Positions 35,045-39,514 of a stretch of 64,000 bases of DNA are shown here, one piece after another (within the stretch, counting starts at the first letter, position 1; the number at the start of each line of letters is the position of its first letter). The DNA lies in NCBI GenBank assembly GCA_011754105.1, contig JAAKDF010000006.1, positions 1-64,000 on the forward strand, in the 5' to 3' direction. The stretch comes from Serratia symbiotica. Its GTDB lineage: Bacteria; Pseudomonadota; Gammaproteobacteria; Enterobacterales; Enterobacteriaceae. The translations under genes and the position numbers were made by a program. The notes beneath the pieces were generated by a model. That model was not told the DNA's origin. It worked only from the letters and a program-made list of their open reading frames with translations, and ran no database searches.

Positions 35045-35822
35045 GGCGTTGTTGAATCAATCTAATTTGGAATAAAGAGTTCCCTGAATGGGTATATTTC
35101 AGGCAACGCGTACACTTTCTGGCATACCGACTAGCGTCATCTTGTTTAATGCACAGATCATAGCCGTAGCCTCTGCTACTTGCTCATCATAATCTTGTAG
35201 CGACAGGTAATCACCAAATAGCTGTTTTACTCTGTACATCGCTGTTTCGGCTATCGAACGTCGGTGGTAGTATGTCATGCTTTTCCAGTGTATGTTATTT
35301 TCGGTAACGCGTTGGTTTGCCGCCGCTTGATTTCGGACTGTATAGTCTGCCGACGAATAACGGGCTCCGCTTCAGGGCAGTAATTCGATAACGAGGTGCG
35401 CAATTTTACCCCGAGTTGGGGGTTTAAACGGGACACTGACGAACTTTAACCGCTTACTGATGCAGGTGTGTTCCGGGCAGTTCAGAGGCATTTTCATCAG
35501 TGTGAAAATGTAGTTGACAAATACCTGGAGCGCGAGAAGTGTCAGGCGGAAAATCCGTTTTAGCACCAATACGCTGGTCATTGTCATATCGTAATAATGT
35601 TGTGGGCGACTAAGCAGAGAAGGTTTTGCCTCTCACTACCAGGCGTGAAGTGCCGTTTTATCCACCCAGAAAGTGAGTGAACCCCGAGTGGTAAGGGCCT
35701 TGTTATAAGCCTTTCAGTTGATGATCTTGAACTTTTGCTTGCCTACGCAATGTCGCTATTTTGACAGAAGGAGAATGATCTGATCCTCGTGCCGGCTAAA
35801 TGTTCGATTTATTCAACAACGC
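35045..35822 (-). mobile_element. IS903-like element, both ends present, interior deleted
   Basis: Both terminal repeats are recognisable (GTTGTTGAATCAATC at the left, ATTTATTCAACAACGCC at the right). The length is 778 bp against about 1050 bp for IS903-type elements. The N-terminal part (TMTSVLVLKRIFRLTLLALQ) and the C-terminal part (AETAMYRVKQLFGDYLSLQDYDEQVAEA on the minus strand) flank a deletion that removed the DDE core. Not able to transpose on its own. Confidence 0.9.
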
Positions 35823-36115
35823 CACAGTACATATAAATTGGTTCTTTTTCAATTCTCGCTGAACTTATCGGGCATAAATAGGGCATAGAAATAGATATAT
35901 TGGGTACTTTTGAGTAGAGGTAACATTTTTAAGAAGATAAAAACTTCATAAAAACATAGGATAAACAGTCTTGTTCAAGGTTGGTGAGTTGATGAAAAGA
36001 GGCGCACTACGGAGTATAAACGTAGTGCGCACGATTACTAGTTTTGTCGGTAGTTTTACTATGGTAAAATTGCAGTCATAAAAAAACCGAAAAGTGTTAG
36101 TTTATCTAAGAATTT
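35823..36115. other. Non-coding gap downstream of the tRNA-Pro remnant
   Basis: AT-rich, with a 10-bp inverted pair (CACTACGGAGTATAAACGTAGTGCG near 36006-36030) but no T-run. No gene is legible. E. coli carries narP and yejO beyond proL; neither is seen. Confidence 0.45.
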
Positions 36116-36192
36116 TTGTCGGCATAAGAGGATTCATACTTCTGACCCCCATCACCTCATGATGATGCGCTAACAGGCGGCGCTATCTTCCG
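36116..36192 (-). pseudogene. proL: Degenerate tRNA-Pro (proL-type, ancestral anticodon GGG)
   Basis: On the minus strand 74 bases align without gaps to E. coli proL (about 60 identities by eye), just downstream of yejM as in E. coli. D-arm GCGC/GCGC is intact and the anticodon stem TCATC/GATGG pairs fully, but the anticodon loop reads AT-GAG-GT (GAG instead of GGG). The T-loop is TATGAAT instead of TTCAAAT, and the acceptor stem has A-G and G-A mismatches at 4-69 and 6-67. No CCA is encoded. Most likely a pseudogene. Confidence 0.8.
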
Positions 36193-36270
36193 CCGCTGCG
36201 GAAGATAATACTACCTATTCTTGATGCTAATGCAAATACTTAGTTGTCCGATTGCTTATGTTCTAAGCAG

Positions 36271-38049
36271 TTAGTTGGCAATAAAGCGTTTTATATCGGT
36301 TAGCACCTGAAATATCAGGGTAGGCTGCAGTTTCTCGTCTTTTATCTCTTTTTCGTCTTTATCATAGGCACAGTAAATTCCATTGTTGTCAAGCGTCAAC
36401 GTTTGCGTTGGCGTGGTGATCACCAGTCGGTTGCTATCGCCGGTGGCGATCCAGTTGTTCTTGCGCTGGGCAGTAAACAGGTCTTCACCCTGCGAGTAAT
36501 CCTTTGGCGTAGTTTTCACATGCAGCAGACGTTGCATCAGCGTGCGCATCACATCGTTATGTCCGGTCAACTTACTGATGGTTTGCGCTGGAGTTCCCGG
36601 CCAATGTACCACCAGTGGTACATGCAACTGAGGTTTACTAAAGCCGCTACCCCATGGCTCTTTGCCAGTATTGTTGAATTCAATGCCGTGCTCAGCTGTG
36701 ATCACCACCACGGTTTTATTTAGCAGGCCACGTTGCTTTAATATACCCAGCACCTGAGCGATCTGTTTATCCACGTCCTGTACTCCGTTACGGTAACACT
36801 GAATAATATCGGTCGATGCTGGCGTTCTTCCCCTGGCTGCTAGCGCGGTACCGCTGAAATTGAGATAGGAGAACCACGGTTCTTCTTTATTTCCCTGATC
36901 CACTAACCAGCATTGCCATTGCTGCGTGGTGATTTCATCGCGTTGCTTGGTTGGCGCTGGCAGGGAGAAGTCTGTAAGCAGGGCCTGCCGATACAGGTGA
37001 GAAGTAAAGCCGTCGGAGGAGAACAAGCCGAATCTATACCCTTGTTCACTGAGCGCATTCACTAGCGCTGAGGGTTTGCAAGAGGCAAGAATGTTGTCTA
37101 AATAGGTTGAAGAAATACCGTAGAATAAGCCAAACAAACCAGTATTGGCATAATTGCCTGAACTGTAATGATTGCTGAAGCGGACATTTTCCTGCATAAA
37201 ATGAGCCAGAGAAGGCATATGCTGTACCATATCCTGAGGGCGCAGACTGTTTACCACAATCATCAGTAAGTTATAACCGCTGCCTTTATCGCTGTAGCTA
37301 AGATCGCTAAGCGGATATTCTACTGCTACGGCTTCAGGATTGCCTTGCTGCATCAGACGGCGATCATATTCTTGTTGATCAAGCAGGCCGTGCTTCTCAA
37401 GAAATTTACGCGCAGTCATCGGGTACGCCAGCGGCAGGTTGGCGCGTTGCATAGTGATCGGGCGATAGAAGTTAGCATCAGCCCAGATGTAAATTAAATG
37501 CGAAGTGAAAAAAGCGCAGATAAATAGCATCGCCAGCGGCTTGCCGAAATACTGGCGGTTCAGGTTGCGTAACTTCTGCCAACTCCAGATGACGAACAGC
37601 ATCTCCACCAGAAAGATGATTGGCACATAGATAAACATCAGTTGCCAGTCGCGATCCAGTTCGCTTTGGTCTGAGTTAACCACCAGTGCCCACACTACCG
37701 GGTTTAGGTGCAGGTGAAAATGGGAGAACAGTTCACTATCGACCAATAGCAGTGTCAGCCCTACAGTAGCAAGCACGGCGGAAATAAAGCGCAACAGCCG
37801 TTGCGACATCACCACGAAGGTGAGCGGGAAAATCACCAGCAGATAGCCAGTGAACACGACAAAGCTAAAGTGCCCCAATAGACTGATCAGAGCATATATC
37901 CGGCCTAGCAGCGAAGACGGCCAGTCAGTTAGAAACTGGTAACGGCTTCCCAACCCAAGGACCAGTAGGATATTAAATAAGGTGAACCAGTGCCCCCAGC
38001 TAATCATCTGGGAGACTTTTTCACTATAATGCTGGCGGTTTGTTACCAT
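36271..38049 (-). CDS. yejM: Inner-membrane LPS regulator YejM/PbgA/LapC
   Basis: Controls LpxC turnover through LapB and binds lipid A/cardiolipin. 592 residues (E. coli 586): five TM helices in about 1-190, then a linker and a periplasmic sulfatase-like domain. The catalytic-nucleophile region of true sulfatases is absent ([12 protein letters not shown]), in line with the family's non-enzymatic role; [17 protein letters not shown] is the conserved SSGN segment. The C-terminus [12 protein letters not shown] is complete. Its start lies inside the frameshifted yejL. Confidence 0.95.
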
Positions 38050-38585: not shown

Positions 38586-39411
38586 GGCTTTGTTGAATAA
38601 ATCGGATTTGGAATAAAGAGTCCCCTGAATGGGCATCTTTCAGGTACCGCGTACAGTTTATGGCATACCGGTGATCGTCATCTTGTTTAATGCACATATA
38701 ATGGACATAGCCTCTGCAACTTGCTCATCATAATCTCGCAGCTACAGGTGACTACCAAATTAGCTGTTTTACTCTGTACATCGCTGTTTAGACTATCGAA
38801 CATCGTTGGTAGCCTATCATACTTTTCCACCGTGTGTTGTCTCCGATAAAAGCGCTGGTTTGCCACCGCTTGATTTCGGTCTGTATATACTGCCGACCAA
38901 AGATTTGCAGTTTCCCCTGACCGTGTTTTTTTACCTTTCACTGCCATTCAGCTAAGATATTAAGCCCGGTAGAGTCGATAACTAGGTGCGCAATTTCACC
39001 CGGCGTTGGTTTTTAAACAGGACATTGACGGATTTCGCCCGCTTACTAATTCAGGTTTAGTCCTGGCAGTTCAACGGCACTTTTATCAGTGTGAAAATAG
39101 AGTCGATGAAGCCCTGTAGGGCGCGGAGTGTCAAGCCGAAAATCCGTTTCAGCATCAATACGCTGGTCATTGCCATATCGGAATAATGTTGTGGACGACC
39201 ACGCAGAGAAGGTTTTGCCTCGCAGTACCAGGCATGAAGTGCCGGTTTATCCACCCCGAGAGTGAGTGAACCCCGAGTGATAATGGCGTTGTTGTAAGCC
39301 TTCCAGTTGGTGATCTTAAAATTTTGCTTGGCCACGGAATGTCACTATGCTGACAGCAGAAGAGTGATCTGATCCTCGTACCGGCCAAATGTTCTATTTA
39401 TTCAACAACCC
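38586..39411 (-). mobile_element. IS903-like element, interior deleted
   Basis: Left end GGCTTTGTTGAATAAATC is a perfect IS903 18-bp repeat; the right end ATTTATTCAACAACCCC carries a short change. About 826 bp remain. The minus-strand transposase start MAKQNFKITNWKAYNNAIITRGSLTLGVDKPALHAWYCEAKPSLRGRPQHYSDMAMTS-type sequence is the best preserved in the window, but the central DDE part is lost. Inserted beyond the arnF end. Confidence 0.92.
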
Positions 39412-39514
39412 CTGCTACACGAGAAAAAAAGCAAATTTTGCAAAGGAAATAATAGGCTGTCTTCCATATATACAGCAGCAGCGCTCACAGTCAATTGCCG
39501 GTAATCATGCCCGA

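Follow-up and report, generated by a model that had tools for sequence, protein, structure and literature searches.

Redundant tRNA genes have been reported to disappear as the genome of Serratia symbiotica shrinks (Manzano-Marin and Latorre 2016, PMC5013485), one example being a tRNA-Met copy of strain SAp with a mutated anticodon (CAT to AAT); proline tRNAs are not discussed in the searched text of that report. Neither proL nor proK is essential in Salmonella; proM is, and its product with cmo5U34 decodes every proline codon (PMC3617221, PMC4519876). Viable proL mutants were isolated there by laboratory selection for frameshift suppression, G29A being among the lesions (PMC3617221). Studies of quasipalindromes (Ripley 1982; E. 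coli thyA and lacZ reporters, PMC6357072, PMC7202029) have shown how mutations turn such sites into perfect palindromes (PMC6357072), with several changes on one arm of an imperfect repeat and the other arm untouched. Template switches have also been proposed to make perfect stems during RNA gene evolution and to mimic compensatory change (PMC8794818, PNAS 2022). The locus analysed here resembles each of these systems and differs from each. Its loss of proL is natural and took place in a symbiont-type genome, and the mutational footprint could be resolved. Whereas the reporters score short insertions and deletions in laboratory strains, the present event is fixed in a decaying tRNA gene; and whereas the PNAS study treats working RNA genes, here a leader appears to have been copied into the acceptor strand of a gene that is dead, breaking the cloverleaf.

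The window, a stretch of 64,000 nucleotides, belongs to a Serratia symbiotica-type genome of 1.54 Mb (37 contigs, 96.6% complete). It was compared with a sister genome (G006), with Serratia symbiotica strain Sm Midelt (G017, contig JAMDYG010000001.1) and with a further relative (G020); the near relatives of the window genome are reduced genomes. Positions 36116-36192 (minus strand) are a relic of proL, the gene of tRNA-Pro GGG, aligned without gaps over all 77 nt. The relic lies directly downstream of an intact yejM (36271-38049, minus strand), the usual upstream neighbour of proL, and tRNA-Pro GGG was intact at this place in 95 fetched loci from Serratia and other Enterobacterales. Nine intact proline tRNAs were used to build a covariance model, with which the relic scored 65.3 bits (E 1e-16), a value that makes its homology to proL certain and lies 41 bits below that of intact proL (106). 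With the same model, the tRNA-Pro UGG of the window genome reached 100.7 bits, proL of G017 89.1 and the deleted proL of G006 69.4. The relic was not called as a tRNA by ARAGORN and had no match to Rfam RF00005. By homology and by its conserved place after yejM, it is thus an ordinary pseudogene of a dispensable tRNA.

The anticodon loop reads ATGAGGT, the anticodon having changed from GGG to GAG (36158-36156) through G35A. Within the anticodon stem-loop (36149-36165) the pairs 27-43 to 31-39 are all formed (T-G, C-G, A-T, T-A, C-G), and the acceptor stem has mismatches at 4-69 (A.G) and 6-67 (G.A) and a pair A7-T66. The T-arm (36127-36143) carries G49A, G52A, T55A and C56T, leaving a T-loop TATGAAT where TTCRAAT is the norm. 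The sequence-only reading had recognized the gap-free proL alignment after yejM, the GAG anticodon, the fully paired anticodon stem, the two acceptor mismatches, the A7-T66 pair and the destroyed T-loop, and had considered the gene dead, all of which was confirmed. Further damage was absent from it: A14C, G19T, an A52.C62 mismatch and C75A, which turns the CCA end into CAA. Owing to these lesions, tertiary contacts and the 3' end are lost. The relic has neither the GGG anticodon, nor the TTCRAAT T-loop, nor the G19-C56 and U8-A14 contacts, nor the CCA end of a functional tRNA-Pro. Its own predicted fold was no more stable than shuffled sequences (z -0.06), and the relic presumably gives rise to no stable product. 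We consider, with a probability of about 0.85, that proL is dead and dispensable in this genome, that it decayed through AT-biased substitution plus at least one template switch and that its GAG anticodon is a by-product decoding nothing.

Dispensability can be understood from the remaining proline decoding capacity. In the assembly, itself 96.6% complete in 37 contigs so that a second GGG tRNA is formally possible, tRNA-Pro UGG was the single proline tRNA found. The cmoA and cmoB genes are open and full length. Among U34 hydroxylases, trhO is open and TrhP was not found in the window genome; TrhO alone suffices for cmo5U. Each of the four proline codons occurs in those window genes that were examined (CCG 75, CCA 50, CCT 35, CCC 16). 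A tRNA-Pro UGG with cmo5U34, which can still be made and which this genome probably makes, reads all four of them, and proL is therefore dispensable. The expectation from the sequence alone that CCC and CCU must be read by a cmo5U-type UGG tRNA was thereby supported, and the genome provides a further worked example in which one UGG tRNA serves the whole proline codon box. A normal tRNA-Leu GAG is also present (L022), so that a proline tRNA with a GAG anticodon would be neither needed nor harmless, and there is no evidence of recoding.

The acceptor side of the relic has a distinct history. Leader and acceptor read TATCTTCCGCAGCGT|CGGCATGTA in G006, G017 and G020, and TATCTTCCGCAGCGG|CGGAAGATA in the window. 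The four changes T-1G, C4A, T6G and G7A all fall on one arm (36184-36193, minus strand; leader position -1 plus tRNA positions 1-9), which reads GCGGAAGATA in place of TCGGCATGTA in the relatives, and each creates complementarity to a leader arm, TATCTTCCGC (36198-36207, minus strand), that is identical in the four genomes. The two arms now form an inverted repeat that is perfect over 10 bp and encloses a loop of 4 nt. The three relatives keep TATCTTCCGCAGCGTCGGCATGTA. Complementarity was gained in the window at each of the four acceptor-side bases that had been mismatched and at no further base of the segment. No perfect repeat of at least 6 bp (loop 3-12) was found there in the reconstructed ancestor. 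The repeat is thus imperfect in the relatives and perfect in the window, with changes confined to one arm, as known for quasipalindromes. We propose that the near-palindromic acceptor strand was copied from the leader TATCTTCCGC, with GCGGAAGATA overwriting TCGGCATGTA in a single event that would have broken the acceptor pairs 4-69 and 6-67 and created A7. The new leader-acceptor hairpin has a predicted stability of -16.5 kcal/mol (z -4.2) and would tie up the acceptor strand in any transcript that is made. A separate inverted repeat, GCGCACTACG / CGTAGTGCGC, perfect over 10 bp and with 9 nt in its loop, was noticed at 36002-36030.

The same dead gene could also have accumulated all of its changes as independent point mutations, the repeat and the paired stem being coincidental. 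Outside the repeat, the relic would suit such a history, since C27T, G35A, C66T and other changes are those of ordinary AT-biased decay. Chance formation of the repeat was evaluated by simulation, in which 14 substitutions were distributed randomly, following the spectrum of the window branch, in 200,000 runs, the test having been framed after the pattern was seen. Only 3 of the 200,000 runs produced a perfect repeat that had been absent before, was 10 bp or longer and involved four or more changes on one arm; a flat spectrum gave the same result. Moreover, three of the four acceptor-arm changes are transversions and two are of the T to G type, which accounts for only 7 of the 299 changes on the window branch. 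Purely independent mutation was accordingly judged improbable, and a footprint of one quasipalindrome template switch at positions -1, 4, 6 and 7 is well supported.

A search for the same footprint across the genome pointed in this direction. About 845 kb of the window genome (eight contigs or parts) were aligned to 1.68 Mb of the sister G006, yielding 650,568 ungapped bases with 45,162 differences; as a null, differing bases were redrawn at the same positions in a direction-specific manner, and mirror repeats served as controls. For stems of at least 8 bp with at least four one-arm changes, three events were found on the window-genome side and three on the G006 side, against 0.2 + 0.2 expected (6 versus 0.4). 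At stems of at least 10 bp, there were one and two events against 0.03 + 0.02 (3 versus 0.05), so that by chance only 0.03 events of the present kind would be expected on the window branch. Mirror-repeat controls gave zero at both stem lengths with at least four changes in this 650-kb alignment. The excess was weaker with at least three changes (six on the window side and three on the G006 side, against 2.1 + 2.1). Although these counts are small, template switching probably operates in both the window genome and G006.

The anticodon stem is less clear-cut. Its tandem changes T40A and C41T (36152-36151) pair with T30 and A29; equivalently, CCATC (27-31, with G29A) appears copied to GATGG (39-43), in a stem of 5 bp only. 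The combination of 40A and 41T arose by chance in 302 of the 200,000 simulations (about 0.15%; 0.15-0.3% for the anticodon-stem part), which is within reach of independent mutation, and adjacent substitutions are not rare on the window branch (13 pairs among 299 changes). A second short template switch from the 5' side of the stem is therefore suggestive only.

Full pairing of this stem might instead reflect compensatory evolution, if the tRNA was still used for some time while selected second mutations repaired its stems. The A29-U41 pair indeed repairs the G29A lesion, which has a phenotype since G29A of Salmonella proL was isolated as a frameshift suppressor (PMC3617221). However, among the 95 functional proL genes the combination at 30-40 is U.U in 90, U.G in 5 and U-A in none, so that U40A does not restore any functional or selected pair. 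The acceptor changes produce two mismatches, and the contacts of A14, G19, U55 and C56 are lost together with the CCA end. As to the 7-66 pair, it results from G7A, attributed to the switch, and from C66T, which belongs to the commonest class of change. Repair under selection is for these reasons very unlikely. The sequence-only reading had taken the paired changes as signs of slow decay or of a phase of selection, a view that is not supported here, since the acceptor changes perfect one arm of a repeat with the leader and the U30-A40 pair has no counterpart in functional genes.

The leader between yejM and the relic (36193-36270, minus strand) is much more strongly conserved than the relic that follows it, with one own-specific change besides position -1 against 12 in the gene; the 3' end of yejM perhaps constrains it. 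A role of the new hairpin as a functional terminator or promoter was considered and rejected, a consensus scan of leader and hairpin having given no promoter or terminator above threshold. A functional RNA, either a GAG tRNA reading CUU/CUC as proline or a regulatory hairpin of leader and relic, would account for the promoter-like hexamers TTGCAT and TAGTAT, which are kept as in the relatives, and for the stable leader hairpin, but is hardly credible beside a normal tRNA-Leu GAG, a damaged acceptor, T-arm and CCA end, the 41-bit deficit, the unremarkable fold of the relic and the negative scan.

With the dead, dispensable proL as preferred reading, its relationship to the copies of the relatives can be considered. 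The sister G006 lost proL independently, through a 7-nt deletion in the T-arm, and its copy is not called as a tRNA; the copy of G020 is intact. G29A, G49A, G52A and C56T are common to the window genome and G017. A clade of these two genomes sharing an already damaged proL was rejected as genome history: relationships were examined with FastTree and site counts, and the arn cluster joins the window genome to G006 (112 versus 11 sites), in agreement with the yejM tree. Since the window genome groups with G006, the changes shared with G017 must be either parallel AT-biased substitutions or the outcome of exchange between lineages. Recombination between proline tRNA loci is suggested in G020 (L048, L142), where the sequence after proL has been replaced by one like that following its tRNA-Pro UGG gene. 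A multi-copy element, present many times in G006, is represented by fragments on both sides of the yejM-proL block, at 35385-35825 and 38901-39412.

Covarying pairs are often taken to prove that an RNA is under selection. In this dead gene a tRNA arm has apparently been rewritten by neighbouring sequence, and the anticodon stem has become fully paired as in no functional homolog; the case is a warning against inferring selection from pairing alone. In symbiont-type genomes, structured RNA genes may even decay frequently through quasipalindrome switching, which a loss of exonuclease VII would perhaps promote, although we regard this as a tentative idea; if true, pseudogenes would show false compensatory pairs. 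Exonuclease VII may limit template switching. Its large-subunit gene xseA is a pseudogene in the window genome (C5:41203-41844), G006 (C1:1618455-1619190) and G017 (C1:125027-125865) and is intact in G020; sbcB is intact in all four genomes.

Other tRNA genes of the window genome were also noted. Those for Trp, Glu and Ile (GAT) were not found in the assembly, probably because of unassembled rRNA operons. A degenerate tRNA-Gly CCC (L025:64-136; C7:27863-27935) reached 31.3 bits with RF00005 and was not called by ARAGORN. In a Met/Gln tRNA cluster, a decayed elongator tRNA-Met with its anticodon changed from CAT to TAT occurs in both the window genome (C26, L019:130-206) and G017 (L146); the window-genome copy scored 44.8 bits with RF00005, likewise with no ARAGORN call.
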